This document shows, one piece after another, positions 5,830-41,936 of a stretch of DNA of 64,000 nucleotides (its first letter is position 1; every line of letters begins with the position of its first letter). The DNA lies in NCBI RefSeq assembly GCF_012689525.1, contig NZ_CP051514.1:1550001-1614000 (forward strand), given 5' to 3'. The notes under the pieces were generated by a model. That model was given only the letters and a program-made list of their open reading frames with translations, had not been told where the DNA came from and did no database searches. The DNA is from Paraburkholderia aromaticivorans. GTDB taxonomy: Bacteria > Pseudomonadota > Gammaproteobacteria > Burkholderiales > Burkholderiaceae. The position numbers were made by a program, and so were the translations under genes.

Positions 5830-7038
5830 TCAAATGACGCCGTCAGTCTTTAACCGGGAAAGCTGCTCACTGGACAGCCCGAGCAACGTCTGGAGCACGT
5901 CGTCCGTGCCTTCCCCCAGTCGAGGCGGCGCGCTTCGTACCGGCAAGCGCGCGCCGTCGAAGCGCCAGGGCGGAACGAGGACTTGCGTGCTGCCAACCTC
6001 CGGATGCGGATGCGTCGTCACGAGTCCGGCATCCCTTGCGCGCTTCGAGGTCAGCGCTTCGTGGAGCCCGAGAACTTCACCGCATGGAATGCCGGCCTGC
6101 GTCAGACGATCGAGCAGACTACGGCGCTCTCTCCGTCCGATCTCGCGATCGATTTCAGGCACCAGCACCGCCCGATTCGCGGCGCGGCCGATATTGGTCT
6201 TGAAGCGATCGTCCTCAGCAAGATCGGGCCGTTCGATCACGTCGCGGCAAAAGCGCTCAAACTGGTTATTGTTGCCGACCGTGATGACGAGCGACCCGTC
6301 CGCGGCATCGAACACACCGTAAGGCACGATTGAAGGATGCGCGTTTCCGTAACGCGGCGTGTCCTCGCCCGAGATCAGCGCTTCCATCCCGCAATACGAG
6401 GTGATCATCAATCCGCAATCGAACAGCGCCATTTCAATGTGGTGTCCCCCGCCGGTTCGTTGACGCTCGAAGAGCGCCGCCAGAATGGCCTGGGCCGAGT
6501 ACATCCCGGTGAACATGTCGACTGCGGCAATCCCGAACTTCAACGGGGGCTGTTTGGCCTCGCCGTTGAGCGCCATCAGCCCGGCCTCGCCCTGAACCAC
6601 CAGATCGTAGCCGGGACGTGCGGCTTCCGGTCCCGTGCGGTCGTAGCCGGAAATTGAGCAGTAGATCAGATCCTCGTGGTTCTGCTTCAGTTGCTCGTAT
6701 CCGAGACCCAGCTTCTCCATCCCGCCGAACTTGAAGTTCTGGATCACGACGTCGCTCTTCTGAGCCAGATCCCGGGCGATCTGCTGGCCTTCGGCGGTTT
6801 GCAGGTCGACGCTCACGGAGCGCTTGTTGCGGTTGACGCTATTGAAATAGGCCGTCTCGGTCGATCCGATGCGCAAGCCCCAATCGCGCGTGTCGTCGCC
6901 GCGTTTCGGGTGCTCGACCTTGATGACTTCGGCGCCGAGGTCGCCCAGCACCATGCCGCACCACGGGCCCGCCAGCACGCGGGAAAGATCGAGCACGCGC
7001 ACGCCCGCGAGCGGCAGCGATGGATTCAGGTTTGACAT
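5830..7038 (-). CDS. CaiB/BaiF (class III) CoA-transferase
   Basis: 402 residues, typical for family III CoA-transferases. The N-terminus has the diagnostic [32 protein letters not shown], and the catalytic Asp is expected in the [13 protein letters not shown] region. These cytosolic enzymes move CoA between carboxylic acids through an aspartyl-CoA thioester. Close family members include succinyl-CoA:glutarate CoA-transferase (SUGCT/GcdG), so a link to the glutarate genes 3 kb away is tempting. It could equally belong with the downstream transporter, GntR and dioxygenase cluster on the same strand. The substrate cannot be read from sequence alone. Confidence 0.88.
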   Translation of the reverse strand: [402 protein letters not shown]

Positions 7039-7171
7039 AGCAAGTCCGTATTTGCAGGAGTTTCTGGCTCACCCGGCGTAAGCGATGTAGCTGGCCCATC
7101 AAGGTGGACCACCCAGAACATGGACATCAGAAAACGTTCAGCCGATGAGATTTGCCACGTCGGCAGCACGC

Positions 7172-8467
7172 TCAGCCGCGTCGCGCTTCCGCGATGTGAC
7201 ACCACCGGCCAATTAGGTACACCGTGAAGGGCAGAACTGCTGCGAGCGGAAGCAAGCGCAACGCGCCTTGAAGACCCACCGCGTCCGCTACTACACCGGT
7301 GAAAAAGGGACCAGCCGCGAGGCCTAATATATTGTTGAACAGCGTCAGCGTGGCAAATGCCGAGCCATGGATAGCTGGCGGTGTGGCCCCAGCAATAATC
7401 GCGCTACACGTGCCGAACGAACTGGCAAGGAAAAACACCGCGGGCGCAAGGAGCGCGAGTTGCAGATTGCCCGGTGGCAAGCGGAACGCGACCGCCAGCA
7501 GGATGCCTAGCACGAGGCAATAACCAATGGCCATGTTCCACCGCTTAAGCGACGAGTCCCTGCTGATCCGGTCTGTGATCACACCGCACAGGAGTTGGCC
7601 CATGCCGCTGACAAGGACAAGGCCGGCCGCCACGACGGCTGCCTTGCTGACAGGCATGTCCCAGTAGCGATTCAGATAGCTGGGCAGCCACACGAAAAGC
7701 GTGCCCTGAATGAAGATCTGCAGGGCGCTGCCGAGGTACGCACAAAAGACGGAACGGGACGGAAACAGACCGGACAAAAGCGCTCGGGGCGTCAGTTTCA
7801 GACGCTCGGACACCGGCGTTCCGCTCGCATTGTCCGCATGCGCATGCGCGAGCCTTTTTTCCGTCACGACGAAGAAGTAAATGATCACCAGCACCAAACC
7901 AAAGATCGCCATCAGACCCATTGACCAGCGCCAGCCAAAGTGAGTCGCAACGACGCCGGAAAGCGAAACGCCGAGCACGGACCCAAAGGCAGCGGCAGAC
8001 GTAAAGCCGCCGGCAATGGTGGAGCGCAGACGCTTTGGAAAGATGCTCATGAGCATCGCGAGTCCGACACTTCCGTAAGCGGCCTCGCCGACACCAACGA
8101 AGATGCGCGCGATGAACATCTCGTTGTAGCTGCTGGCAATCGCGCACCCGAGCGTGGCAACGCTCCACAGCGCGGCCATCACTGCAATGCTTTTGACACG
8201 CCCCCAACGGTCCGCGATTATGGAAAACGGCAGGGTCAGCACGCCGACAGCCAGCGGCACCACGCCGCTGATCGAACCGAGCTTTGTATCGGTAAGCTGC
8301 CACTGCACTTTCAAGATCGGAAACAAGGCATTGAGCGCCTGCCGCGACATGTAGTCAGACAGCAAGAGGCAAAACATCAATGCAAATACCACCCACGCGT
8401 AGGCTCGGGCGCCACTGGTAACCGCCGCCGACTTGGCCGGCACTACGTTACTTGTATAAAGGTTCAA
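7172..8467 (-). CDS. Major facilitator superfamily transporter (organic acid type)
   Basis: About 432 residues with twelve predicted membrane segments. MFS signatures are DRWGRVKS in the loop between helices 2 and 3 and GVGEAAYGS in helix 4-5, with a long central cytoplasmic loop (EKRLAHAHADNASG). I chose a TTG start at 8467 because GGAGGA stands about six bases upstream. The open frame continues upstream to 8542, but those residues are hydrophilic and lack a ribosome site. An operator-like palindrome lies about 274 nt upstream (8741-8748). It sits between a CoA-transferase and a GntR regulator and probably imports the acid the island degrades. Start and substrate are uncertain. Confidence 0.85.
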   Translation of the reverse strand: MNLYTSNVVPAKSAAVTSGARAYAWVVFALMFCLLLSDYMSRQALNALFPILKVQWQLTDTKLGSISGVVPLAVGVLTLPFSIIADRWGRVKSIAVMAALWSVATLGCAIASSYNEMFIARIFVGVGEAAYGSVGLAMLMSIFPKRLRSTIAGGFTSAAAFGSVLGVSLSGVVATHFGWRWSMGLMAIFGLVLVIIYFFVVTEKRLAHAHADNASGTPVSERLKLTPRALLSGLFPSRSVFCAYLGSALQIFIQGTLFVWLPSYLNRYWDMPVSKAAVVAAGLVLVSGMGQLLCGVITDRISRDSSLKRWNMAIGYCLVLGILLAVAFRLPPGNLQLALLAPAVFFLASSFGTCSAIIAGATPPAIHGSAFATLTLFNNILGLAAGPFFTGVVADAVGLQGALRLLPLAAVLPFTVYLIGRWCHIAEARRG

Positions 8468-10290: not shown

Positions 10291-11136
10291 TCAGTATGGT
10301 TTATCGCCTTCGATTCCTGCTCGCTCCATCTTGCGCGGAGCAGGCCAATAATCCATTACCGCGTAGTGCTGCGTGGGCCGGTTGTCCCAGACTGCAATAC
10401 TGTTCGGCTTCCACCGGAAACGAACCTGATACTCAGGGATCGATGCCTGGCTCTGCAGGTAACTGAGCAGAAGGCTCGCACCCGGCGTCTTGTCCAATCC
10501 GTAACGCACATTTTCAACCGTATGGTAGTTGACGAAATGCGTCGTGAAGCTGCTGACATATAGAATCTTTTCGCCAGTCTCTGGGTGCGTCCGCACGACA
10601 GGGTGCTCCACCTCCGGGTTCTGCACCGCCAGTTTTCTTCGCTCCTCCGGATCCATTGCCGCACCGAACGAGTGCTCAATGCTGCTTTTTGCTCTCAATC
10701 CCTCGATGCGCTTCTTGATGTCTTCTGGTAGTTGCTTATAGGCCTCTACCATGTTGACCCAGATGGTGTCACCCCCAACCTCTGGGCACTCGACACAGCG
10801 CAGCACGGCGCCCATAGATGGGTTCGGCCGCCAAAGCCCATCGCTATGATAATTGTTCTCGTAAGGATTTTTTGCTTCCGATCGATAGATCTGCACGAGG
10901 CCCGGGTGTTCCGGATCGCTTCCCGCAACGGGATGATCTTCCAATTTCCCGAAACGGCGCGCAAAGGAAACATGCTCTTCCCGAGAGATGTCCTGATCTC
11001 GAAAAAAGAGCACTCGGTGCTTAAGCAACAGCGCCTTGATCTCCGCGAACAGCGATGCATCTCGAGACGCATCCCCCAAGCTCACACCGGACACCTCGGC
11101 ACCAATGCAAGCGGTCAGTCTCTCTACTTTAATCAT
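10291..11136 (-). CDS. TauD/TfdA-family Fe(II)/2-oxoglutarate-dependent dioxygenase
   Basis: 281 residues from the ATG at 11136, chosen because AGGAGA lies eight bases upstream; an in-frame codon ten residues earlier has no such site. The 2-His-1-carboxylate iron triad is visible as H97-x-D99 (YHSDG) and H257 (NRPTQHYAV), and WDNRPTQH resembles the TfdA/TauD signature. Family members oxidise taurine, aryloxyacetates, alkyl sulfates and related compounds, releasing the polar group by hydroxylation next to it. An operator-like palindrome lies 136 nt upstream. With the transporter, porin and BKACE nearby, it likely starts degradation of an imported acid. The exact substrate is unknown. Confidence 0.9.
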   Translation of the reverse strand: MIKVERLTACIGAEVSGVSLGDASRDASLFAEIKALLLKHRVLFFRDQDISREEHVSFARRFGKLEDHPVAGSDPEHPGLVQIYRSEAKNPYENNYHSDGLWRPNPSMGAVLRCVECPEVGGDTIWVNMVEAYKQLPEDIKKRIEGLRAKSSIEHSFGAAMDPEERRKLAVQNPEVEHPVVRTHPETGEKILYVSSFTTHFVNYHTVENVRYGLDKTPGASLLLSYLQSQASIPEYQVRFRWKPNSIAVWDNRPTQHYAVMDYWPAPRKMERAGIEGDKPY

Positions 11137-11264
11137 GATCGATATCTCCTTGTATCTGGCAGGCATTTCACCAACTCACCCACCGTCACCGCGTGGCGAC
11201 GCAGCTTTACGAAACCGTGAAATATTGTTGCCCTGCATCTGTACAAATAAGATAGCAGATCACC

Positions 11265-11286
11265 ATATTTATGTCGACATTAATTT
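11265..11286. promoter_or_regulatory. Putative GntR operator upstream of the TauD-family dioxygenase
   Basis: The palindrome ATGTCGACAT at 11271-11280 is followed by TAATTTT, matching the island consensus. It lies 136 nt before the dioxygenase start in an AT-rich gap that contains no gene. Confidence 0.6.
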
Positions 11287-11485
11287 TACTACCTCTGGTT
11301 TGGAATGGCCGCAAAACACGATGGCAGGTATGAGTAGCCGTGCGCGGCGCCCGCCGCAGGCCGGGTTGATCGCGAGTTATTGACGCAGCCGCTCGCGCTG
11401 TCGGTAGTGCGTGAGCACTCATTTGATCGCACAACCGGAGCTTGAATAGTCGGATGAATCATCGCGACGCTGTCCGCTGAAGCAG

Positions 11486-11851
11486 TCATGGCGCGCGCCT
11501 CGCGAGCTCGCTGATCGACCGAAGCAGTTCCAGCGCCTGCGCTGCGGCGCGAGGACCGTCTGACAAGTCTCCCCGAACATAAAGAGGACGAAGCTCCTCG
11601 ATTTCGGTCAGCGCACCAAGCAGTTCGCCTTCCGCAAGGGAATACTTGCGCAGCATGTTAACGACCAGCATCGAGTTGTGGACGATGTCCTCACAGTCTG
11701 AAGTGACGCCGCGGCGATGCAGCGCGTAGTTCGCCCAGTGTGTGCCGGCCAACATCGCGGCCTCAATTTTCATTTCCCAGTCGTCTTCGCCGAGAAACCT
11801 CAGCGATGTCTCGATGTTCTCGGCTTTGGCCCGATGATTCTCGGTTTTCAT
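11486..11851 (-). CDS. Small alpha-helical hypothetical protein (possible HEPN-like fold)
   Basis: 121 residues, not recognised with certainty. It appears all-helical and contains AGTHWANYALHRRGVT, which resembles ASINVFNAALHLTGLT in the gene just upstream, so the two may be diverged paralogues. It starts at an ATG 89 nt inside the 3' end of that gene, in another frame; codon quality favours this frame in the overlap. It could be a nucleotide-handling or ribonuclease-associated helical protein, but nothing here proves that. Confidence 0.55.
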   Translation of the reverse strand: MKTENHRAKAENIETSLRFLGEDDWEMKIEAAMLAGTHWANYALHRRGVTSDCEDIVHNSMLVVNMLRKYSLAEGELLGALTEIEELRPLYVRGDLSDGPRAAAQALELLRSISELARRAP

Positions 11852-28542: not shown

Positions 28543-28618
28543 TGGATCCTCACGGGCCAACGGCATCGATGTGCCCACGTGGAAAATAGAGATTTTTCCA
28601 AGGCAACCGGAGGATCCA
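28543..28618 (+). ncRNA. Structured leader of the IS110 transposase; possible bridge-RNA region or ribosome-site hairpin
   Basis: TGGATCCTC (28543-28551) pairs perfectly with GAGGATCCA (28610-28618) and the stem extends by CGG/CCG past one bulged A. Inside lies a second hairpin (GGAAAA at 28581 with TTTTCC at 28594). The outer stem covers the GGAGG of the GTG start at 28622, so folding would block translation. IS110-group elements encode a bridge RNA upstream of the transposase, and this position fits, but length and loops have not been tested. Confidence 0.45.
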
Positions 28619-28621
28619 GTG

Positions 28622-29641
28622 GTGAATCGTACAGCAGTCGGTATAGACATCGCGAAAAACGTGTTCCAGGTGCATTACATCGATCAGGAAACCGGCGAGA
28701 TTGTGAACAAGCCGGTCAAGCGGGCAAAGTTCCTTGAGCACTTCGCGAACCGTGCGCCGTGCCTGATCGGGATGGAAGCTTGCGGTGGTGCGCACCACTG
28801 GGCCAGGCAACTGACGAAGATGGGCCACGAGGTGAAGCTGATGCCTGGGGAGTTCGTGAAGGCGTTCAACATCCGTAACAAGAACGATGCGGCGGACGCC
28901 CGGGCGATCTGGCTGGCGGTGCAGCAGCCAGGCAAGCCGGTCGCGGTAAAAACCGAGATGCAGCAGGCGATGCTTGGGCTGCACCGGATGAGGCAGCAAC
29001 TGATCAAGTTCCGAACGATGCAGATCAATAACCTGCGAGGACTGCTGACGGAATACGGCGAAGTGATGAGCAAGGGCCGGAGCAAGCTGGACAATGAGAT
29101 ACCGGTGGTGCTCGAACGGATCGCCGAGCATCTGCCTGCTGTGATCATTGACACGTTTCGCGAGCAGTGGAACGGACTGGCGAAGCTGGACGACCAGATA
29201 GCACAGATTGAGCGCCGCATGAGCGAGTGGAAGAAGGAAGACAAATCGGTAAAGGCAATCGGCGAGATCCCCGGCGTCGGACTGCTGACGGCAACAGCGG
29301 CGGTCGCGATGATGGGCGACCCGAAAGCGTTCAGTTCGGGGCGGGAGTTTGCCGCGTGGGTTGGGATCGTACCGAGGCAGACGGGTTCGGGCGGCAAAGT
29401 GAATCTGCACGGGATCAGCAAGAGGGGGGACACGTATCTGCGCACACTGCTGATCCACGGTGCACGTAGCGTCCTTGAGCACGCAAAGGAGCCAGGTGAG
29501 TGGCTCGAGCAGATGAAGAAGCGGCGGCCAAAGAATGTCGTGATAGTCGCACTGGCCAACAAGATGGCGCGGACGATCTGGGCCGTACTGGCCCATGACC
29601 GGCCATACCGGAAGGACTATGTGAGCGTAAAACCGGCCTGA
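28622..29641 (+). CDS. IS110-family transposase (DEDD recombinase), intact
   Basis: 339 residues from the GTG at 28622 (GGAGG eight bases upstream). The RuvC-like DEDD domain shows AVGIDIAKNVFQVHYID (first Asp), GMEACGGAHHW (Glu) and RNKNDAADARAI (Asp pair). The C-terminal Transposase_20 domain (VKAIGEIPGVGLLTATAAVA) and the tail GISKRGDTYLRTLLIHGARS follow. The element lands between an IS6 fragment and non-coding sequence. No interruption was found, so it may be active. Confidence 0.93.
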   Translation: MNRTAVGIDIAKNVFQVHYIDQETGEIVNKPVKRAKFLEHFANRAPCLIGMEACGGAHHWARQLTKMGHEVKLMPGEFVKAFNIRNKNDAADARAIWLAVQQPGKPVAVKTEMQQAMLGLHRMRQQLIKFRTMQINNLRGLLTEYGEVMSKGRSKLDNEIPVVLERIAEHLPAVIIDTFREQWNGLAKLDDQIAQIERRMSEWKKEDKSVKAIGEIPGVGLLTATAAVAMMGDPKAFSSGREFAAWVGIVPRQTGSGGKVNLHGISKRGDTYLRTLLIHGARSVLEHAKEPGEWLEQMKKRRPKNVVIVALANKMARTIWAVLAHDRPYRKDYVSVKPA

Positions 29642-30118
29642 ATGACTCACGCGATGTAGAAGATCAACGTTTGACACAGGGTGAACGTCGAAAGGTTGCG
29701 CAGCAATCGAGTGTGATGACACCCATTAGCGGGTTCGTGTCAAGCGAGCAAGCAAAACCCACGGCTGTCAGCAGCCGGGTTCGATGCCTGATTGCAGTAG
29801 CTGAGCGCGCCCGTTTCTTCAATTCCTGGCTTGCGACGGATCGCGCCAGACACCCATCAGGATCAAGCGATCGGCGTACTGCGGTTGCCTGTCGCCCTGG
29901 TGGCTGCGCCACCCCAGAAGAACTTTGGTACCGCAATGCGTCCATGGGGTTCGCACAAGTGCAAGGGCTGCCGGGTTGTCGGCGCCAATCCACAGCTGGC
30001 TCGCATTGCGGGCGATCCGCTTTTACTGCATATCGGGGACGGCGGCACAGCATCCTATTCAAACCAAAGTGGTTGAATACCAGTCATCACATGAGGCTTG
30101 CGGCCGCCGTCGTTAGCT
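29642..30118. other. Non-coding stretch between two IS110 elements
   Basis: About 475 nt. Frames on both strands are short and lack motifs. It presumably contains the right end of the first IS110 and the right end of the second; IS110 elements have no long terminal repeats, so the borders cannot be placed by eye. Confidence 0.4.
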
Positions 30119-31132
30119 CTACGTAAAGCAGCGCGTTATATCGAATGGCTTGTGCTCCTTCAGCATGTGGAAGCATGCGCGGGCGAGCTTGTGCGCCAAA
30201 GCTTTGCGCGCCAGGATGGTATTGGTCTTGACCTTCTTTCGCTCGTAGAATCGTTTGGCCTCAGCGCAATAGCGCAGCGCGAAGTTGGCCGCTTCGATGA
30301 ACGCCCAGGACAGATACGGGTTGCCATTCTTTGTATTGCCTTCGCCTTTCTTCTTGCCGTTGCTCATGTGCTGGCTGTCGACGCAGCGCGCATAGGAAGC
30401 AAAGGTGCCGGCGCTGGCGAACCGCTCAATAGTGCCCACCTCCAGCAGAATGACGGTTGCAAGAGTCTGACCTATGCCCGGCACCGTCGTCAGCAACGTG
30501 TAGTCAGGGTTCGGTGCGACTTTTTCGTGAAGACGTTTTTCCAGGAGGTCGATCTGCGTGCAAAGCGTTGTTATGACCGCGACGTTGGCCTGAACCGCGA
30601 GTGCGATGTCGTCTGGCAGGTGCATTTGTTTGATGGTTTCTCCGTCCAGTCGCTTGACCTGGTTGCTCGTGATTCGCTTGCCGAACTGGCGTGCCGTAAT
30701 GTTCTCGACCGCGAGGATGTGGCTGGTGCGACTTCGTACGAGTTGCATCCGTTTCCTTGCAAGATCACGAACGGCACGCTGTTGTGGCGGCAGGATGGTC
30801 CCTGTCGGAAGTATCCCCAGCCGCAGCAGGTGAGCCAGGTAACGCGCATCGGTCTCATCGCCGCTGTGTTTGAGTCCATCGTATTTCTTGATAGCCGTCG
30901 TATTGGCGAGATGCACTTTGAAGCCCGCTTCCTGCAACCCGTCGACAAGCCAGTACCAGTTGAAGGTGGATTCGACCACGACGCCGGCCAGCTCCGCTCG
31001 CCATGGTGAAAGAAACGCAAGGATTTTTGGCAAGTCGTTAGGCATGCGCTTTTCCGCGACCACCCGGTCCGCCTCATCGGTCACAGTCACGACGCTGTTA
31101 TTCGAATGCAGGTCAATTCCGCTATATTTCAT
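30119..31132 (-). CDS. IS110-family transposase (DEDD recombinase), second and different copy
   Basis: 337 residues from the ATG at 31132, with GGGAGG five bases upstream. DEDD residues are visible in KYSGIDLHSNNSVVTV, GVVVESTFNWYWLV and GDETDARYLAHLLR. The C-terminal domain has LLTTVPGIGQTLATVILLE and KNGNPYLSWAFIEAANFALR. It is clearly divergent from the copy at 28622, so the two arrived separately. The frame is intact. Confidence 0.93.
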   Translation of the reverse strand: MKYSGIDLHSNNSVVTVTDEADRVVAEKRMPNDLPKILAFLSPWRAELAGVVVESTFNWYWLVDGLQEAGFKVHLANTTAIKKYDGLKHSGDETDARYLAHLLRLGILPTGTILPPQQRAVRDLARKRMQLVRSRTSHILAVENITARQFGKRITSNQVKRLDGETIKQMHLPDDIALAVQANVAVITTLCTQIDLLEKRLHEKVAPNPDYTLLTTVPGIGQTLATVILLEVGTIERFASAGTFASYARCVDSQHMSNGKKKGEGNTKNGNPYLSWAFIEAANFALRYCAEAKRFYERKKVKTNTILARKALAHKLARACFHMLKEHKPFDITRCFT

Positions 31133-31146
31133 CACAGCCTCCCTTC

Positions 31147-31612: not shown

Positions 31613-32346
31613 TCAGATAGTGTTAGATACCGCGGTGGTGACTGTCCAGTCATACCATTTGGCGAAGCGTTCCTGCAGCATTCCGCGATGACATGCTGCG
31701 TTCATCAGATGTCTGGGCAACGCGAAGTGCTGCCGGATCGGTCCGAAGCATGAGAGAAACGCCTGCGTGCGACGCGCATCGCGAAAGCCACACATCTGCC
31801 GTTCGCGCCTGCGGGTCGGTTGGTGGCTGTTCTCTGCGCGGTTGTTCACCCGTGCAGCCGCCTTGACGAAAACGTGCTTCACATGAACAAGCTCGGGAAT
31901 CTCTGCCTTTGCCGCTGGATAGCTGCGTAGCTGGTCGGTGACGATCTTGCGCGGCACCGGGTTTGAACGTAGCACCCTCCGGAAAAAGCGCTTTGCCGCA
32001 GCCTTGTCGCGCCGCTTTTGCACCAGCACGTCGAGTTCAGCACCATGCTAGTCGACCGCTCGCCACAGCAGATACGGCTCGCCGCGCAGCGTCACGAACA
32101 TTTCGTCCAGATGCCATGTGCTACCCGGCTTGCGCCGTCCGGCTTTGGCGCGCTGGGCGAATCCAGCGCCAAACTTCTCGCACCAGCAACGGATCGTTTC
32201 GTAGCTGACCACGACACCGCGTTCGAGCACAACTCCTCGATATCGCGCAGGCTCAGGTTGAACCGGAAATACCAGCGAACCGCGCAGCTGATGACGATGG
32301 CGGGGAAACGGTAACCGTGGTAAAGCGATTTCGTCTTCTTCATCAC
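31613..32346 (-). pseudogene. IS6-family transposase pseudogene with a frameshift and an amber codon
   Basis: N-terminal part (MKKTKSLYHGYRFPAIVISC, AVRWYFRFNLSLRDIEEL) is shifted near 32225 into the frame VVVSYETIRCWCEKFGAGFA and TWHLDEMFVTL. A TAG at 32048-32050 then replaces the expected Gln in LLWRAVD-[stop]-HGAELDVLVQKRRDK, and the rest runs to 31613 with the Asp (IVTDQLRSY) and Glu (RAENSH) catalytic regions intact. The terminal sequence near 32370 matches that at 18070. Not functional without recoding. Confidence 0.85.
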
Positions 32347-32507
32347 TTCATTCTACCGCCGCCTCCCCTCAACCTGACAAAGCCCTTGTGACCGCCCCTT
32401 TGACGGTCGTGCTCAAGGGATGCGCATGCCGATCTCTGCCTCTCTGGTAAATGTTTGGCCGATGGGCTCGATGTCGGCACAAGCGCTTAATAAGCGCAGG
32501 CCACCAA

Positions 32508-32535
32508 AAAGGGTTCGCAGAAATGCGAGCCCTTT
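32508..32535 (-). terminator. Rho-independent terminator for the SBP/sensor-MFS transcript
   Basis: AAAGGGTTCGCA (32508-32519), loop GAAA, and TGCGAGCCCTTT (32524-32535) form a 12-bp stem with one G-U pair. On the minus strand it is followed by a T-rich run (CCCTTTTTGG). It lies 28 nt after the SBP stop and could work in both directions. Confidence 0.75.
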
Positions 32536-32562
32536 TGTTTTGCCTTGCCACTGTCGGGGCAC

Positions 32563-33567
32563 TCATTTTCCTACAATCTCTGCCCCTTGAAGGATCGAAA
32601 TTGGGGGAAAGCGGTCTAGTTGCCTTGCCACTTTCATATTGACCACGTACGCAAACTTGGTTGCCCGCACTACTGGGAGATCACCGGGTTTCGCGCCATC
32701 CCTAAGGATCTTCAAGGCCTGATCGGCTGCAAGTCGGCCGACATCCTCCAGCCGCGCCGCGATGGACAGGAGGGCGTGCTTGTCGCGGACGAGATCCTCA
32801 TAGGGGCTTACGACCGCAATACCGCTGTCAACCGCAGAGGCAGTGAACACTTCTCCATTGGCGCGTAGATATGCGCTTGAACCCACGTAGAGCCATTTGA
32901 CGCCCTTGTCCTTTAGCTGGCGAAGGCGAACTGGAATCAACGCCGGATCCGGCGCACCCGAATTTCCAGGGTCAATCTCGAGGGCCACAAGTTCCACGCC
33001 CAGCTTCGGGGCGACTACGCTCAGCTCCTGCATTTTCAGGACCGAGTTCTTTTCATTGGAATTGTAGAGGAGGCCGAGCTTCTTGAATGCCGGATCGTAT
33101 TTCCGGATGATGTCGATGTTCATGGCCTCCGGCACCCTGTTGAACGTTCCTGCCACATTGGGCCGGCCACTGCGCTCAAAGCTCTCAGCAATGTGGGCGC
33201 CGAAGGGATCAGCCACCACTGTGAAGACAACCGGAATGTCATGGAGGTAGCGCGGGTCGTCGCGATCGTCGAGTGTGCCAATTAGTCCAAGCGTAGCGTT
33301 GGTTCCATAGACCACCACCAGATCGGCCTTCATGTCACGTGCCATCTTGACGGCTTCCGGCAGTTGCGACTTGTTCTCTTTCAGATCGAGAACCGTGACC
33401 TCCGCATTGAAGCCGCTCTCCGCAATCTCGGCTTTGAATCCCTGGCATGTATTCTCGCAACCGTCATAGAACGCGCCAAGGATTCGCTTCTTTTCTCCCG
33501 TATGTGCCGCGCCGGAGAAGGCGCAAATGAGCACCAGAAGAATGACCCTACTGAAAAGCATCTTCAT
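32563..33567 (-). CDS. ABC-type periplasmic substrate-binding protein (ABC_sub_bind family) without an ABC transporter
   Basis: 334 residues. A Sec signal peptide (MLFSRVILLVLICAFSGAAH) has no lipobox, so the protein is probably soluble in the periplasm. The mature part has two Rossmann-like lobes: KRILGAFYDGCENTCQGFKA, DLVVVYGTNATLGLIG, IPVVFTVVADPFGAHI and, in the second lobe, KKLGLLYNSNEKNS and AVDSGIAVVSPYEDLVRDKH. The family (TrpX-like) normally feeds an ABC importer, yet no ATPase or permease lies nearby. It follows the sensor-MFS gene by 63 nt on the same strand, before a terminator, so it may deliver ligand to that protein. GGGAGATAGGAT precedes the ATG. Confidence 0.85.
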   Translation of the reverse strand: MKMLFSRVILLVLICAFSGAAHTGEKKRILGAFYDGCENTCQGFKAEIAESGFNAEVTVLDLKENKSQLPEAVKMARDMKADLVVVYGTNATLGLIGTLDDRDDPRYLHDIPVVFTVVADPFGAHIAESFERSGRPNVAGTFNRVPEAMNIDIIRKYDPAFKKLGLLYNSNEKNSVLKMQELSVVAPKLGVELVALEIDPGNSGAPDPALIPVRLRQLKDKGVKWLYVGSSAYLRANGEVFTASAVDSGIAVVSPYEDLVRDKHALLSIAARLEDVGRLAADQALKILRDGAKPGDLPVVRATKFAYVVNMKVARQLDRFPPISILQGAEIVGK

Positions 33568-33630
33568 ATCCTATCTCCCTGTATTGGTTCGGGACCAGGG
33601 ATCATGGAACAATGACTAAGGCCGCCTCGG

Positions 33631-36492
33631 CTATAGTGATGTCGGCGTCCCGCGATCGATACGCGCCGGTCTGGGCCGGCTGGAAATTGCAAAAAGAACG
33701 CCACCAGCTATCGACCAGAAGGCGACTGTGGCAGTGGCAACCGCATAACCGGCCTCTCCGGCAAGTGCCGCGATCGCAATAAGTCCCACAATGCTTCCTA
33801 GTCGTTCCATTGTTCTGAGTGCCGCAAGCGCCACGCTTGAGCCCAAACGTCTCAAGTCGGTTTCGGCCATCGACATGGCAACCGAAACCTGCGCCCCACG
33901 CACCAGTCCATGACCGAAGCCGGCACCAAGGACGGCGAAGATCATCGAAATTTTGCCTGGCCCAAAGGCAACAGGCAGAAGAGAAAGCCCGGCAACGAGG
34001 CTTCCGGCCAGCGCGATCAAGGTCACCGGCACGCCTCGCTCGGCTACCCGTCCGCCAAATGAGCCAACGATTGCAACCGCAATGAAATAGATCATTAGCG
34101 TACGTCCAATATCCGCTGGCGGGGCACCGAGCGCACTGAGACTCAAAGTCACAAGATAGCAAATGAAAGCCTGCAACAAGACGTTGGCCGGTATTGCCAC
34201 GCCAAAGACGAGACTGGCAAAGTGTGTGTCCCGAAGCGCCGCAAAGATTGGAATCTTCGAGGATTTCGGCGAATCCGCCTGGTGGCTCCCGGCTACAGGC
34301 TTGACGAACCAAAGCGTCAGCATGGCCGATGTAGCGACCAGCGTCGCGCTGAAGAGAAATACATTCGACGGCCCAAGCCTGTCGGCAAGAACGCCGCCGA
34401 GCGCCGCTCCACAGAAAATGCCGCCAAAGAGTGCTGCGGAAAACATGCCAAGGGACCGGTCACGCTCTTCTCTCAGAGTTGTGTCGATGACATAGTCCTG
34501 GCAGGCCAGCGTCACCAGTGCGTATCCCGCCCCGATGATGGTGCGCGCCGCGACGATCTCTGGAACGGAAGTAGCGAAGTAAAGGAGAAGATGCGCCGCA
34601 AAGACAGGAATGGCTGAAAGAAACAACAGCATCCGCCTTCCCAACCGCTGTGCCAAAGGGGCTGCGAAAGGCGAGATGAAGACGATTGCGCTCAAATAGC
34701 CTGCCAACGGGAGACTGACCAGCACACTCTCATCTACCCATTTCCAGGGATTGTCGGCTGCCCGCGTATAGAGTGGCAAAAAGGAAAGCGGTAGCTCGTC
34801 GGCCGCGGCGAAGAGGAACAGGGCTAGGCGCAAGTCGGTGAAATAAGAGAAGCGCAGGGTTGTTGGCCCTCTCTCCGAAAGACAATAGTGCTCGCGCAAG
34901 TTTTCCAGCAGAGCGCGCCTTCTGTCTGAGTGCAACATCGCCGCATGGAGAGTCGCGAATCGCGCATTGAGCGCCTCGGCGCGTTCGATCAGGTTCCTCG
35001 CGGCGCGGTCCACCGAATTCCTGGTGGAAACACTCGCCCTTTTCGAAAAATTCCCGACCGCCTGCATGGCCGCAATCCGCTGCAACCTGTCGAGAGGTGC
35101 TGTTAAGGCCCGGCTGGTCATCAAAACCATGATCTCGAATGCCAGTAATATTGCGGCAAGGACGATGACACCCATGTCGAGAAATACATCGAGAAACTTC
35201 CTGGCGATGAAAGCGGGATCAATATCGATGATGACATAGGCAATCTCCTTGCCGTCGACGACGATCGGATGGCTGCGGGCATCCTTGCGCTCACGACGCA
35301 GCGCGAGATCGGGGGCGATGCGTTTCCCAGCTTCGAGCACCACGTGTCCCGTGACAATGGCGATATAAGCCACTTCCGGAAGTTGCTGAAGCATGTCGCC
35401 AAAATATCGCTCCGCCCCCACCAGACGTTCGAGAGGCACGCCAGCAGTCACCGCGCGTTGCACATTCTCGCTTACTACGGTGCCAATTAGGTTGCTGCGG
35501 GCGGCAAGCTCGGGTTCGATGGAATGGTTGACCGCGCTGAGTATTGTGTTGCCAAGCAACATCGCCGAAACGAAAATGAACACGGCTGCGAGGAGGGTCA
35601 GCCGTGAGGCGATTCGACGTGCCAGCGAACGAGTAGAACTGGACGCAACCACGGATTCCTGCGAACGCGCCTCCTGGCTTTCACCCGTATGAACCGGTGA
35701 ACTGGAGGCATTGGATTCGACGGACGAAAGTGCAGTAAGCGATTCACACGCCTGGTCATATTTGCGTTTTGCTTCAACGAGGTTGCTTCTGAGGTGTTCT
35801 ATCTCAGGCCCAAACAGGTTGCGCCAAAACGTCAGGGCCGGCACGGCTTGAGTCACCGACGTGTTGTCGGCCGCGAACTCGCCCCGTGACAACGACTCGA
35901 TGTGTAAAACGGCTCGATCTGGCGCGGCGAGAATGGGGCGCAGTAGCAGGAACGCAATGAGCGAGGATGCGGCCCAGATCAGCAGCGCCGTTCTTACGAT
36001 GCCGCCGATGAAGGACATGGAGGCCGCTTTAAGGCGCGCTTTGGGGTAGGCGACGACCACGGCACCATTCACGCGGTCGTCCGCCCCCACAATATTGAAG
36101 CCGCTGAGAATTTCGTCCGACGTTTCCGTGTTCCATGGATTGTTGCGCGACAGCTTCATCACCTGCAAAACATGCGGAGGTAGCGGGCGAAGCGTGCTTC
36201 TTGTGCTGAAGATCACGTCGCCATCCGGGCTCAGTGCATCTACGCCCGCGATCTCGTGATCCATTTCCCGAGCACGTGCAACGATTTCGCTTCCGTTGCG
36301 GATCATCGAAAGTGGGATTCCCAGGTCGGTGATAGGCTTAAAGGAAGAGGCGGTTGTCTGGGCAATGACCGAGATGCGCTGGCGCAGAAGATCCGAGAAA
36401 ATCGCGTTGCGCTGAAGTGTAGAGAGCGAGCCGAGGATTGCGAGCAAAAGCGCGATGGCAGCTGAAAAGGTCAACCACGTACGCGGAAGCAT
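33631..36492 (-). CDS. Fusion of two membrane sensor modules (TM-periplasmic-TM-HAMP, twice) with an MFS permease
   Basis: 953 residues. TM1 (about 7-25), periplasmic domain 1 (26-158), TM2 (162-184) and a HAMP-like stretch (185-210) are followed by a coiled-coil (225-255) and Ser-rich linker (255-290). TM3 (297-318), periplasmic domain 2 (319-435), TM4 (440-460) and a clearer HAMP helix pair (RALTAPLDRLQRIAAMQAVG, to about 515) come next. From about 548 to 940 there is a 12-helix MFS domain (RLGRRMLLFLSAIPVF, GAGYALVTLACQDYV, GGIFCGAALGGVLADRLGPS). Periplasmic domain 1 has a PAS/Cache-like VDALSPDGDVIFST. No kinase, cyclase or methyl-accepting domain is present. It is cotranscribed with the substrate-binding protein, suggesting ligand-gated transport. 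The gene is one uninterrupted frame. Confidence 0.85.
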   Translation of the reverse strand: MLPRTWLTFSAAIALLLAILGSLSTLQRNAIFSDLLRQRISVIAQTTASSFKPITDLGIPLSMIRNGSEIVARAREMDHEIAGVDALSPDGDVIFSTRSTLRPLPPHVLQVMKLSRNNPWNTETSDEILSGFNIVGADDRVNGAVVVAYPKARLKAASMSFIGGIVRTALLIWAASSLIAFLLLRPILAAPDRAVLHIESLSRGEFAADNTSVTQAVPALTFWRNLFGPEIEHLRSNLVEAKRKYDQACESLTALSSVESNASSSPVHTGESQEARSQESVVASSSTRSLARRIASRLTLLAAVFIFVSAMLLGNTILSAVNHSIEPELAARSNLIGTVVSENVQRAVTAGVPLERLVGAERYFGDMLQQLPEVAYIAIVTGHVVLEAGKRIAPDLALRRERKDARSHPIVVDGKEIAYVIIDIDPAFIARKFLDVFLDMGVIVLAAILLAFEIMVLMTSRALTAPLDRLQRIAAMQAVGNFSKRASVSTRNSVDRAARNLIERAEALNARFATLHAAMLHSDRRRALLENLREHYCLSERGPTTLRFSYFTDLRLALFLFAAADELPLSFLPLYTRAADNPWKWVDESVLVSLPLAGYLSAIVFISPFAAPLAQRLGRRMLLFLSAIPVFAAHLLLYFATSVPEIVAARTIIGAGYALVTLACQDYVIDTTLREERDRSLGMFSAALFGGIFCGAALGGVLADRLGPSNVFLFSATLVATSAMLTLWFVKPVAGSHQADSPKSSKIPIFAALRDTHFASLVFGVAIPANVLLQAFICYLVTLSLSALGAPPADIGRTLMIYFIAVAIVGSFGGRVAERGVPVTLIALAGSLVAGLSLLPVAFGPGKISMIFAVLGAGFGHGLVRGAQVSVAMSMAETDLRRLGSSVALAALRTMERLGSIVGLIAIAALAGEAGYAVATATVAFWSIAGGVLFAISSRPRPARIDRGTPTSL

Positions 36493-37339: not shown

Positions 37340-39031
37340 ATGCAAATCGATTATCAAACGATGCGGTTTGACTACGAACGAGCCGCCGACCACGATGCCG
37401 CCACGCCTGCCACGTATCCGGTGGTCGTGATCGGAGCGGGCCCTGTCGGACTGAGCGCCGCGATCGATCTGGCGCAGCAGGGTGTTCGTACCGTGCTCGT
37501 CGATAACGACGACACACTGTCGAGCGGCTCGCGCGCCATCTGTTTCGCCAAGCGGACGCTGGAAATTTTCGACCGCCTCGGCTGCGGCGCGCAGATGGTG
37601 GACAAAGGCGTGAGCTGGAACGTCGGCAAGGTGTTCCTGCAGGACAAGCTGATCTACACGTTCAATCTGCTGCCAGAAACGGGCCACGCCCGCCCCGCTT
37701 TCATCAACTTGCAGCAGTACTACGTCGAAGGCTATCTGGCCGATCGCGCGCGGCAGACCGCCAATCTGCAGATGCGCTGGAAAAGCAACGTCATCGGTCT
37801 GACGCAGCACGACGGCTTTGTCGAATTGCAGATCGAAACCCCGGACGGCGTCTATCCGATGCGCGCGCAATACGTGATCGCCGCCGATGGCTCGCGCAGC
37901 GCGGTGCGCAAGGCGCTCGGTCTCGATAGCCGTGGGCGTACGTTCAAGGACCGCTTCCTGATCGCCGACGTGAAGATGAAAGCGCCATTTCCGACCGAGC
38001 GCTGGTTCTGGTTCGATCCGCCGTTTCACCGCAATCAGTCGGTGTTGCTGCATCGTCAGCCAGACAACGTCTGGCGCATCGATTTCCAGCTTGGCTGGGA
38101 CGCCGACCCAGTTGCGGAAAAGCAGCCGGAAAAGGTGATTCCGCGCGTGAAGGCATTGCTGGGCGAAGACGTCGAGTTCGAACTCGAATGGGTCAGTGTC
38201 TATACGTTCTCGTGTCTGCGCATGGACAGCTTCCGGCACGGTCGTGTGCTGTTCGCGGGCGATTCGGCGCATGGCGTGTCGCCGTTCGGCGCACGCGGCG
38301 CGAATAGCGGCGTACAGGACGCCGACAACCTCGCATGGAAGCTGCGGCTGGTGGTCAACGGCAATGCACCGCCGTCGCTGCTAGACACCTACGCATCGGA
38401 GCGCGAATACGCGGCCGATGAGAACATCCTGAACTCGTCGCGCGCAACCGACTTCATCACACCAAAGAGCGCGATTTCGCGGATGTTCCGCGATGCGACG
38501 CTGAAGCTCGCGAAGGACTACCCGTTCGCGCGACGTATTGTCAACAGCGGGCGTCTATCTGTTCCCGCCGTCTTGCGCGACTCGACGCTGAACACGCCCG
38601 ACGCCGCCGACGCCGCGTTCCGCTGCACGACGGTGCCCGGCGCGGTCTGCACAGACGCGCCCGTCAAGGTGCAAGGCGACGACGCGTGGTTCCTCCATCA
38701 GACGAGCCATGGCGGTTTTACGGGCGTGCATTTCTGCGACCATGGCGACGATCTTCCGGCGTGTGCCAAACAGCTTGCCGCGCTTGCCCGGCTCGCGGTT
38801 CCGGTCCGCACAGTGATCGTCGTGCCGCGCGGCGCTGCGGTGACGGCCTTGCCGGGTGTGCCAGATATCACTGTGGTCGAGGACGTCGAGGGCATCGTCG
38901 CGCATCGCTTCGATGCGCGTCCCGGCACCTTCTATCTGCTGCGACCCGATCAGCATGTCTGCGCACGCTGGCGTGCGTTCGACATCGGATCAGTCGCGAA
39001 AGCAGTCAATCGCGCTACGTGCAACGGATGA
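37340..39031 (+). CDS. mhaA: 3-Hydroxyphenylacetate 6-hydroxylase, FAD flavoprotein component
   Basis: 563 residues (about 62 kDa), a flavoprotein monooxygenase of the FAD_binding_3/PheA family. The FAD motif IGAGPVGLSAAIDLAQQG is at about 31-48 and the second FAD contact GDSAHGVSPFGARGANSG starts near 307; a thioredoxin-like C-domain follows. In Pseudomonas putida, MhaA with the small coupling protein MhaB turns 3-hydroxyphenylacetate into homogentisate. Here the next gene is a 79-residue protein and then hmgA, fahA and maiA follow, which makes this assignment likely. Other ring hydroxylases (MhpA-like, 3-hydroxybenzoate) are similar in sequence; the operon decides. NADH-dependent, cytosolic. 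Confidence 0.85.
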   Translation: MQIDYQTMRFDYERAADHDAATPATYPVVVIGAGPVGLSAAIDLAQQGVRTVLVDNDDTLSSGSRAICFAKRTLEIFDRLGCGAQMVDKGVSWNVGKVFLQDKLIYTFNLLPETGHARPAFINLQQYYVEGYLADRARQTANLQMRWKSNVIGLTQHDGFVELQIETPDGVYPMRAQYVIAADGSRSAVRKALGLDSRGRTFKDRFLIADVKMKAPFPTERWFWFDPPFHRNQSVLLHRQPDNVWRIDFQLGWDADPVAEKQPEKVIPRVKALLGEDVEFELEWVSVYTFSCLRMDSFRHGRVLFAGDSAHGVSPFGARGANSGVQDADNLAWKLRLVVNGNAPPSLLDTYASEREYAADENILNSSRATDFITPKSAISRMFRDATLKLAKDYPFARRIVNSGRLSVPAVLRDSTLNTPDAADAAFRCTTVPGAVCTDAPVKVQGDDAWFLHQTSHGGFTGVHFCDHGDDLPACAKQLAALARLAVPVRTVIVVPRGAAVTALPGVPDITVVEDVEGIVAHRFDARPGTFYLLRPDQHVCARWRAFDIGSVAKAVNRATCNG

Positions 39032-39267
39032 CCATCATGACCACACTGAACATCGAAACCAATATCGCCGACCCTGACGCGTTCTACGAAAAGCTGATCG
39101 ACGCACACAACGGCCTGACCGACGAACAAAGTCATTTCATGAATGCGAAGCTGGTGCTGTTGCTCACCAACCACATCGGTGATGTTGCCGTGCTGGCCGA
39201 AGCGCTCGCCATTGCCCGCGCAGGCGTCGCGGACGATAACGACGCCGCGCCGCAACAGCCGCATTGA
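39028..39267 (+). CDS. mhaB: Small coupling protein of 3-hydroxyphenylacetate hydroxylase (DUF2783 family)
   Basis: 79 residues (or 76 from the second Met, 39037). Core: NIADPDAFYEKLIDAHNGLT then QSHFMNAKLVLLLTNHIGD and LAEALAIARAG, the DUF2783 pattern. The ATG overlaps the mhaA stop (ATGA). P. putida MhaB is likewise a very small protein that couples NADH use to hydroxylation. Its place between the flavoprotein and hmgA fits. Confidence 0.82.
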   Translation: MTIMTTLNIETNIADPDAFYEKLIDAHNGLTDEQSHFMNAKLVLLLTNHIGDVAVLAEALAIARAGVADDNDAAPQQPH

Positions 39268-39297
39268 TCCACCATTTCCAGTTCCACGGAGAAACAG

Positions 39298-40632
39298 ATG
39301 CCGGAAAACACAGATGGACTGACACGGGCCTCAGACAACCGATACCAGTCCGGCTTTGGCAACGAGTTCGCCACCGAAGCGTTGCCAGGCGTGCTGCCCG
39401 TTGGCCGCAACTCGCCTCAGCAGGTCGCGAGAGGGCTTTACGCCGAGCAGTTGTCCGGCACCGCGTTCACCGCGCCGCGTGCGCATAATCGTCGTTCGTG
39501 GCTCTACCGGATTCGTCCGGCCGCCGTTCACAAGCCTTTCACACGTCTCTCGAACGATCGCCTGGTTGGCGACTTTTCGACCGTGCCGACGACCCCGCCC
39601 AACCAGTTGCGCTGGGACCCGCTGCCAATGCCGAATGGACCGGTGGACTTCGTCGATTCGCTGGTGACAATGGCGGGCAATGGATCGGTGGCGTCGATGA
39701 GCGGCTGCGCGATCCATCTGTACGCGGCCACTGCATCGATGCGTGACCGCTTCTTCTATTCCGCCGACGGCGAATTCCTGATCGTGCCGCAGCAAGGTCG
39801 CCTGACGATTTCGACCGAACTCGGCGTGGTGGATGTCGAGCCGTTCGAGATTGCCGTGATTCCGCGTGGCGTGCGTTTTTCGGTTGCGCTGCCGGACGGC
39901 GAGGCGCGCGGCTACGTCTGCGAAAACTTCGGCGCGTTACTCGCACTGCCGGACTTGGGCCCGATTGGCTCCAACGGCCTTGCGAATCCGCGCGACTTCC
40001 TGACGCCGAAGGCAGCTTTCGAAGACCGCGAAGGCGACTTCGAACTGGTCGCGAAGTTCGACGGTCATCTGTGGCGCGCGAATATTGGTCACTCGCCGCT
40101 CGACGTCGTTGCATGGCACGGTAATTACGCACCGTACAAATACGACCTGCGGCACTTCAACACGATCGGCTCGATCAGCTTCGACCATCCCGATCCGTCC
40201 ATCTTCCTCGTGCTGCAATCCCCGAGCGATACGGAGGGCGTTCATTCGCTCGACTTCGTGATCTTCCCGCCGCGCTGGCTGGCGGCCGAAGATACGTTCC
40301 GTCCGCCCTGGTTCCACCGTAACGTCGCGAGCGAGTTCATGGGACTCGTACACGGCGCGTACGACGCAAAGGAAGAAGGCTTCGTGCCGGGTGGCGCGAG
40401 TCTGCATAACTGCATGTCTGGGCATGGTCCGGATGCGGAAACGTTCCGGAAAGCATCGGCATCGGACACGACGAAACCGCATAAGGTGGACAACACGCTC
40501 GCGTTCATGTTCGAGACGCCGCGCGTGATTCGCCCGACCGCGTTCGCACTGGAAACCTCGCAATTGCAGGCCGAGTATTTCGAATGCTGGCAAGGTCTGC
40601 GGAAAAACTTCACGGCGGAGAAACAAGCATGA
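39298..40632 (+). CDS. hmgA: Homogentisate 1,2-dioxygenase
   Basis: 444 residues, the standard length. It opens homogentisate to maleylacetoacetate with non-haem Fe(II). The N-terminus [16 protein letters not shown] is diagnostic. The iron ligands are expected in [15 protein letters not shown] (His and Glu) and [12 protein letters not shown] (His), all present. It overlaps fahA by 4 nt. Confidence 0.97.
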
Positions 40633-41936
40633 CGCACCCCACTCCGATGACGCGGCAAGCGTCCAATGATCCGCGCCGTAAAAGCTGGGTCGAAGCTGCG
40701 AACGATGCAGCCAGCGACTTTCCGATCCAGAACTTGCCGTTCGGCGTGTTCAGCGACAGCGGCAATCCGACGCCACGCGTCGGTGTCGCGATCGGCGATT
40801 GCATCGTCGATCTCGCTGTGCTCGCGGATAACGGTTTGCTGACGCAAAGCCGTGACGTGTTCGCGTGTGCGTCGCTAAACCGCTTTATCGCGCTCGGACA
40901 GGAGCAGTGGCGTGCAGTGCGCGCGCAACTGTCGACGCTGCTCGACGCAAATACTGCCTCGTTGCGCGACGACACTTCACTGCGCGAGAAGGCGCTGGTC
41001 GCGCAAGCTGATGCCAGGATGCATCTGCCCGTCGAGATTCCGGGCTATACGGATTTCTATTCGTCCAGGGAACACGCAACCAACGTCGGCTCGATGTTCC
41101 GCGACCCGAAGAACGCCCTCCTGCCTAACTGGCTCGAAATCCCGATCGGTTATAACGGCCGCGCGTCGTCGGTGATCGTCAGCGAAACCCCGGTCAGGCG
41201 ACCCAATGGCCAGATCAAGACGCCCGACAGCGATCGCCCGAATTACAGCGCGTGCCGCAAGCTCGATATCGAGCTCGAGACCGGTTTTATCGTCGGCACG
41301 AATACGACCCTCGGCGAGCCGGTTGCGTGTGAAGAGGCCGAAGCGCATATCTTCGGCATGGTGCTGCTCAATGACTGGAGCGCGCGCGACATCCAGCAGT
41401 GGGAATACGTGCCGCTCGGTCCGTTCAATTCGAAAGGCTTCGCCACAACGATCTCGCCGTGGATCGTGACGCTCGATGCGCTCGACCCGTTTCGCTGCGC
41501 GCAGCCCGAACAGTCGCCGCAGCCCCTGCCGTATCTGCGCCATACCGGTCAGCACGGCTTCGATATCCGGCTCGAGGTCGATCTGCTCGGCGCGGGCGAA
41601 CGCGAGACATCTACGATTGCGCGGACCAACTTCAAGTACATGTACTGGACGATGGCGCAGCAACTCGCGCATCACACCGCGTCCGGTTGCAACGTGCGGG
41701 TCGGCGACCTGATGGGCTCGGGGACGATCAGCGGCCCGACGCCGGATTCATGCGGCTCGCTGCTCGAATCGACGTGGAACGGCCAGCGCCCGCTCGCGCT
41801 GCCTTCCGGCAACGCGCGCGCGTTCCTTCAGGACGGCGACGAAGTGGCGATACGCGGATGGTGTCAGGGCGACGGCTATCGCGTCGGCTTCGGCACATGC
41901 TCAGGCAAGATCCTGCCCGCACCGGAGCTTGCATGA
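40629..41936 (+). CDS. fahA: Fumarylacetoacetase
   Basis: 435 residues from the ATG at 40629 that overlaps the hmgA stop; an upstream in-frame Met lies inside hmgA and is not used. The hydrolase splits fumarylacetoacetate to fumarate and acetoacetate with a metal ion. Metal and catalytic residues are in [19 protein letters not shown] (Asp), [11 protein letters not shown] (two Glu) and [19 protein letters not shown] (Asp). Confidence 0.97.

Follow-up and report, generated by a model that had tools for sequence, protein, structure and literature searches.

A candidate ligand-controlled transport system in Paraburkholderia aromaticivorans: a lone substrate-binding protein paired with a sensor-fused MFS transporter

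HAMP domains drive kinases, cyclases, phosphatases and chemoreceptors. What such a domain may control in a protein that ends in a transporter is the question raised by a gene pair of Paraburkholderia aromaticivorans, located in a 64,000-nucleotide stretch (the window) of contig NZ_CP051514.1. The pair comprises two minus-strand open reading frames (ORFs): 33631-36492, encoding 953 amino acids without interruption, and 32563-33567, encoding 334 amino acids and starting 63 nt past the stop of the former. Re-reading both ORFs gave the same coordinates, sizes and spacing as an earlier interpretation of the letters (the original prediction), in which the larger product was described as a permease of the major facilitator superfamily (MFS) with two built-in sensor modules, each carrying a HAMP domain, and the smaller one as a lone periplasmic substrate-binding protein (SBP). 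We propose that the two genes may form a ligand-controlled transport system, in which the loaded SBP would act through Cache domains and HAMP to gate the MFS transporter, and give this reading a chance just short of even.

Ahead of the transport domain, the AlphaFold2 model of the 953-residue protein (predicted local distance difference test, pLDDT, 83.9; predicted TM-score, pTM, 0.81) contains four N-terminal membrane helices and Cache/PAS-like periplasmic domains at about residues 28-151 and 320-425. Hydropathy peaks at residues 8-26, 170-188, 300-318 and 440-458 mark the corresponding transmembrane (TM) segments in front of the MFS helices. Module 1 (residues 1-190; 35923-36492, all features of the protein lying on the minus strand) comprises TM1, a stalk helix, the first Cache/extracytoplasmic PAS domain and TM2. 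It is followed by a HAMP-like stretch (residues 181-250; 35743-35952) and a linker predicted to be disordered (residues 260-287; 35632-35715), with pLDDT below 50 over most of its length. Module 2 (residues 290-460; 35113-35625) consists of TM3, the second Cache domain and TM4 and leads into HAMP 2 (residues 451-520; 34933-35142). Both sensor domains are modelled with a Cache/extracytoplasmic PAS fold. This assignment draws mainly on structural alignment with VIA-align, which tests module 1 far more than module 2 and in which the fold of sensor 1 matched CitA, KinD, DcuS and WalK; a Foldseek search with the sensor model gave a single match under E 0.001, an integrative WalK model. Module 2 matched the sCache_3_2-HAMP region of histidine kinases at 98.3% in a profile comparison. 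Among the family members, dCache_1 matched 3 of 43 at E <= 0.1; no Pfam Cache model matched the 953-residue protein at E <= 1. The top structural match of module 1 was PDB 5ere residues 353-505, which lie in the C-terminal part of an 'extracellular ligand binding receptor' of 540 residues; the chain would be an SBP-Cache fusion if its remainder is a binding protein; the SBP profile did not match 5ere.

HAMP homology was examined by hhalign profile-profile comparison, with three kinases, three SpoIIE proteins and one methyl-accepting chemotaxis protein (MCP) as references. The best windows were residues 451-520 (score 42.1, probability 95%) and then 181-250 (25.0, 65%), and the 34 windows starting in the MFS part scored at most 12.9. 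By these scores, HAMP 2 is divergent but real, whereas the degenerate HAMP 1 is no more than suggested. The homology originally placed at residues 460-515 is therefore present, but the HAMP at 185-210 has to be regarded as degenerate. In addition, the NCBIfam models of the kinases BaeS, PhyK, WalK, CpxA and NarX gave weak matches between residues 403 and 523, the TM and HAMP region of the second sensor. No kinase or MCP output domain was matched by Pfam in the protein.

What follows instead is the transport domain (residues 552-937; 33682-34839). The Pfam model MFS_1 (PF07690) matched residues 557-888 (E 3e-29, 102.4 bits vs. a cut-off of 33.4), the AlphaFold2 model shows helices at 552-937 consistent with a 12-TM MFS fold, and Foldseek with this part returned VMAT, MdfA and NorA at target TM-scores of 0.73-0.84, all in agreement with the predicted 12-helix domain. 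R650, D666, R797, E877, R893, E896 and R897 were invariant in 43 of 43 family members, and D565 was present in 41. Because of these charged residues the transporter does not look degenerate, which suggests that it is a working one. The best-scoring solved relatives are the exporters or antiporters NorA, MdfA and VMAT; the symporters XylE and DgoT ranked lower in the same lists. As the kinship is DHA1-like, export is predicted to be more likely than uptake. The DHA1 antiporter motif C is GPxxGG in TM5. When the family was compared with this motif, the glycines were invariant and the proline was missing at position 696 in all 43 close members; the proline was read in the distant relatives L069 and L077 (loci are numbered with L). 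These data bear on a narrower form of the proposed model, a ligand-sensing efflux pump whose sensors would monitor how much of its own substrate, or of a toxin, is present outside and whose SBP would only raise sensitivity. The DHA1-like fold and the resemblance of sensor 1 to small-molecule sensor domains are in line with such a pump, but nothing that we found ties the sensed ligand to the transported substrate, and the missing proline argues against it despite its occurrence in L069 and L077. We consider it very improbable.

The architecture is that of a family. A protein search, in which 8000 candidates were scored, yielded 135 relatives at E <= 1e-3; among the 120 listed, identities ranged from 42 to 93%, most alignments covering more than 95% of the query. 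End-to-end alignment was obtained for 43 representatives, with invariant residues in both sensor modules and in the MFS domain, and 42 representatives were 43-63% identical to the window protein. A contig scan gave 46 loci, of which L079-L084 were plain MFS matches and 40 belonged to this family or its distant kin, originating from Mesorhizobium, Ruegeria, Roseovarius, Defluviimonas, Labrenzia, Sneathiella, Kiloniella, Ensifer, Pseudomonas, a Spirochaetaceae metagenome-assembled genome (MAG) and others. In L061 and L075 the sequence starts partway through the MFS protein; the reading frames of L043 and L078 are broken or split. In four pairs of loci, the ratio of nonsynonymous to synonymous substitution rates (dN/dS) was 0.03-0.12 in sensor 2, 0.07-0.17 from TM4 to HAMP 2, 0.09-0.27 in sensor 1 and 0.11-0.15 in the MFS domain, and it was higher in the tail of module 1 and the HAMP-MFS linker (0.22-0.49 in three pairs). 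One of the four, L047/L048, was saturated at synonymous sites (dS 1.8-2.6) and lacked a usable value for two regions; the pair L053/L057 was dropped (dS of 0.07 or less). Purifying selection on sensor 2 and HAMP 2 is similar in strength to that on the MFS domain, as expected if they work together. An artefact, in the form of a misassembly that merged two genes or of a fusion that is no longer functional, might be argued from P0055 (Burkholderia sp. YR290) and P0070 (Undibacterium arcticum), which match the sensor part only, end in unrelated sequence and look frameshifted. Dozens of full-length relatives rule out misassembly or chance fusion, including the mis-join at about residue 530 that the original prediction had allowed for, and dN/dS well below 1 also speaks against an artefact. 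The probability left to an artefact is negligible.

The 334-residue protein is matched by the SBP family PF04392 over residues 35-319 (E 6e-29, 101.6 bits vs. a cut-off of 25.9). It had been called TrpX-like; with the TrpX equivalog model of NCBIfam (NF041285) it scored 88 bits, far below the cut-off of 390 bits. Its closest solved relatives are SP1069 (3LFT), VC_1101 (3LKV) and CD0873 (6HNI), each holding an aromatic amino acid (Trp, Phe or Tyr) according to the accessible part of PMC6816091. The CD0873 selectivity positions Glu263 and Tyr279 align with Tyr256 and Leu273 in the window SBP, unlike in all three solved proteins; as two selectivity positions differ, assignment of the ligand to Trp, Phe or Tyr from structure was rejected. 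No ATP-binding cassette (ABC) domains were found in the two proteins nor in the seven flanking ORFs scanned, in accordance with the earlier description of an SBP without ATPase or permease. In the 10.8-Mb window genome this is the one intact PF04392 gene; the other match (G000:C1:28289-29106) lies in two adjacent pieces in separate open frames and probably represents an SBP gene that has been disrupted. In viral contigs, no match was obtained with the exact peptide patterns chosen for the SBP.

It had been suggested originally that homologues carrying both HAMP and MFS domains might co-occur with such a binding protein, and the two genes are indeed regular neighbours. After setting aside the plain MFS matches L079-L084 as well as L066 and L068, which are cut by contig ends, 38 loci of the contig scan could be judged. 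In 34 of these, a PF04392 gene is next downstream on the same strand; in L051 it is adjacent but convergent. The sensor-MFS and SBP genes overlap by 4 nt in L047 and L054, the SBP gene of L056 runs off the contig end (found by tblastn), and a 403-nt gap in L042 holds the remnant of another SBP copy (10940-11050) before the intact one. A further set of ten loci had the PF04392 gene on the same strand, adjacent or one gene away, in 10/10 cases; in L120 the order is SBP, sensor 1, MFS, the SBP gene thus being one gene away from that of the MFS protein. Dereplication at 60% MFS identity left 25 loci, with the SBP present in 23 (L051 and the tblastn-detected L056 among them, L058 and L059 being folded into L056), cut by the contig end in one (L066) and absent in one (L067). 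Pfam confirmed PF04392 for 7/7 SBPs tested beside MFS proteins. The distances in MFS and SBP trees were correlated (r 0.80, n=22, 0/2000 permutations). Adjacency by chance was rejected on the basis of these counts, the tree correlation and the presence of a single intact PF04392 gene in the 10.8-Mb genome. A third gene conserved next to the close family was likewise rejected: among gene clusters common to at least four loci, only clusters 5 (window, L042, L046, L055; including an IS240-type fragment of the window) and 7 (L044, L051, L062, L063) touch it besides MFS and SBP. Two tandem SBP genes each were observed in L044 and L050, and in L121 an SBP_bac_3-like gene (6581-7306) directly follows the PF04392 gene.

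The same type of SBP was also found beside another output. Lone PF04392 SBPs adjoin sCache-HAMP hybrid histidine kinases in L125 (6698-10731), L126 (6109-9245) and L127 (6097-10046), three of the 21 non-MFS loci among 30 loci examined (nine MFS, one of them the window) from 71 matched genomes, and Pfam confirmed 3/3 of these SBPs. Module 2 is homologous to the Cache-HAMP sensors of such kinases. In the proposed model, the secreted PF04392 SBP would capture a small molecule and present it to, or dock on, the periplasmic Cache domains of the 953-residue protein. The resulting change would travel through TM4 and the HAMP helices, the route taken in histidine kinases and chemoreceptors, and HAMP, separated by a linker of about 30 residues from the first MFS helix, may then open, close or dimerise the DHA1-like transporter. 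The SBP would thus be a soluble co-receptor of a Cache-HAMP sensor whose output domain has been exchanged, being a kinase in some bacteria and an MFS transporter here. The model is coherent, has a parallel in the kinase pairs L125-L127 and is partly supported; of the three outcomes originally named as refuting it, none was observed.

Several results weigh against this model. Pfam HAMP (PF00672) gave no match up to E 1 in the whole 953-residue protein, and the module 2 slice alone reached 15.7 bits, below the gathering cut-off of 25; the same profile matched 4/18 slices at E <= 0.5, that of the window among them, and 3/43 full-length members at E <= 0.1. The usual DE at the start of HAMP helix 2 is missing in the 12 close members aligned. 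Part of the Cache score of module 2 comes from HAMP, which the kinase profile contains, and sliding windows gave 92% for module 2 and 74% for module 1. A search of the PDB with the module 1 sequence profile retrieved no solved Cache domain. Shared species history contributes to the tree correlation, and no PF04392 SBP occurs in the contig DNA examined for L058, L059 and L067; downstream of the gene in L059 (Kiloniella), an SBP_bac_3 gene on the other strand (11022-11825) is perhaps a replacement. SBP-Cache contact and HAMP gating are steps that we infer, as are proton coupling, the direction of export and the identities of ligand and substrate.

The pairing could also mean that the SBP hands its cargo directly to the MFS domain, the Cache domains being mainly a docking platform and HAMP only holding a dimer, in the manner of the tripartite ATP-independent periplasmic (TRAP) and tripartite tricarboxylate (TTT) transporters, which are SBP-dependent secondary transporters with a lone SBP. 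The tight association with a lone SBP, the lack of ABC domains in the pair and the seven flanking ORFs scanned, and purifying selection on the sensors would all be consistent with such SBP-fed transport. However, the top solved relatives NorA, MdfA and VMAT have the wrong polarity, with XylE and DgoT lower, the same sensor-SBP pairing serves histidine kinases, and L058, L059 and L067 have no SBP beside them. We regard this possibility as unlikely.

More distant relatives are organized differently. Module 1 is encoded by a separate upstream ORF of about 250-285 codons in L010/L085, L063-L065, L069-L072, L074, L076-L078, L086, L117-L120 and L122 (aligned for L010, L063, L064, L069, L077, L117-L120 and L122 only). 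Because relatives carry module 1 in this way, the window form is a fusion of a wider two-gene sensor. Some distant relatives count among the points against gating of the transporter. The partner-switching profiles SpoIIE, STAS and HATPase_c_2 all matched in L069-L074, L076, L077, L119 and L124, and SpoIIE and HATPase_c_2 in L120; the loci, Pfam-checked in part, include a Spirochaetaceae MAG (L069) and alphaproteobacterial MAGs (L070-L074, L076, L077). In L073 (661-1959, one MAG), a single ORF encodes an anti-sigma-type HATPase_c_2 domain followed by a module 1 sensor. An ammonium transporter gene was observed beside the partner-switching form (cluster 6, five loci; L069 5573-6955, L077 3194-4606; Pfam for two). 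Genes for type VI secretion (T6SS) accompany the module elsewhere: in L117 and L118 the SBP gene precedes VgrG-like, DUF6931, TssA-like and Hcp genes, and in L121 and L123 the module has ClpV/TssG/TssF/VipB genes on one side and an FHA gene on the other (called by Pfam for L117 and L121, by homology for L118 and L123). As the MFS proteins of the two T6SS-linked sequence types share 34-36% identity over their last 400 residues, two separate recruitments to T6SS are possible.

These neighbours and the L073 fusion hint at another, signalling output in the family. The sensor-MFS protein might accordingly be a transceptor, mainly a signalling receptor whose MFS domain senses or moves a solute and which reports to cytoplasmic partners, the SpoIIE/STAS/HATPase switch or T6SS in distant relatives and some other partner in the window. 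The loci just described, L120 with two of the three profiles included, favour this explanation. It is countered by the 27 closer-relative loci L039-L065, none of which matched the SpoIIE, STAS or HATPase_c_2 profiles (some contigs being short), and by the SpoIIE proteins of L069, L119 and L120, which have their own HAMP matches, all just under the Pfam cut-off. The window genome has no SpoIIE match, and partner switching through SpoIIE in this organism was rejected for that reason. We consider the transceptor unlikely, with some weight left to it. The original claim that the permease is the only possible output fits the window and L039-L065 but not the distant partner-switching and T6SS loci or the L073 fusion.

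The setting of the pair in the window suggests a mobile origin. On one side the pair is bordered by transposase sequences, namely two IS110-family genes and an IS240-type fragment (28571-31135, 31613-32029), and because of these it looks horizontally acquired. Among 98 genomes related to that of the window (57 others of the same genus), a full-length match was found only in the window's own genome; G079, of another family in the same order, gave two diverged matches. On the other flank (37340-41936) and the opposite strand are genes for an FAD-dependent hydroxylase, homogentisate dioxygenase and fumarylacetoacetase, that is, for aromatic amino-acid catabolism. The terminator predicted after the SBP gene corresponds to a hairpin of 13 pairs at 32507-32536 that resembles a terminator (consensus match only, no strand assigned), but such sites are not enriched in the region (6 found vs. 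6.2 expected).

A literature search, with subscription journals mostly outside its coverage, found no description of HAMP-MFS proteins or of the SBP/sensor-MFS pair, in agreement with the original remark that no characterised system of this kind was known. Both domains are named in some automated annotations (P0008, 'MFS family arabinose efflux permease/HAMP domain-containing protein'), so that the architecture is recorded there and, as far as found, unstudied. If HAMP drives a secondary transporter, an outside ligand could switch uptake or export with no need for gene regulation, and flux would offer a direct readout of HAMP coupling. Such control would also add a new mode of cooperation between a lone binding protein and a secondary transporter, and it gives a clue to the presence of the module in certain partner-switching operons and T6SS clusters. 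We tentatively suggest, at somewhat worse than even odds, a new class of membrane receptor with a secondary transporter as HAMP output. Its module would be old and spread over several phyla (some by MAG contigs only). It would exist either as two genes, with the sensors fused, or as three, with sensor 1 encoded apart, and would have become linked to partner-switching operons in certain lineages and to T6SS clusters in two sequence types.

Among known systems, the Cache-HAMP sensors (the CitA, DcuS and WalK kinases, chemoreceptors and SpoIIE phosphatases) share the TM-Cache-TM(-HAMP) input, as judged by the fold of sensor 1 and the homology of module 2, but differ in output, which is an MFS domain in the window protein. 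The outputs named in the accessible part of a Cache survey (MCP, HK, GCD, SP, AC/GC, STK, TF and ion channel; PMC4822843) include no secondary transporter, and 'MFS', 'transporter' and 'permease' have 0 occurrences in its main text as available. The L125-L127 pairs are alike in SBP family (over the Pfam cut-off in 3/3), sensor type and gene adjacency; they differ in ending in a kinase and receiver, and their SBPs score lower on the SBP profile (54-67 bits) than the MFS-paired ones. DHA1 drug:H+ antiporters and VMAT (NorA, MdfA, VMAT2) resemble the transport domain in its 12-helix fold and in sequence; to our knowledge, they have no periplasmic sensor modules, HAMP or SBP. In TRAP and TTT systems the membrane subunits are DctQM or TctAB, whereas here this part is MFS_1 and Cache-HAMP is added. 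The SLC5/STAC histidine kinases (CbrA, CrbS, RpuS), as far as described in the accessible part of PMC9100948, likewise fuse a secondary transporter to signalling parts in one chain, but their output is a kinase, whereas in the window protein the sensor precedes the transporter and a kinase domain is lacking. The TrpX-like aromatic amino-acid SBPs (3LFT, 3LKV, 6HNI) are the closest solved relatives of the window SBP and differ at two selectivity positions. The gene pair is best described as a variant of Cache-HAMP receptors and SBP-linked secondary transporters, with a realistic prospect of representing a new kind of system if gating of transport is demonstrated.

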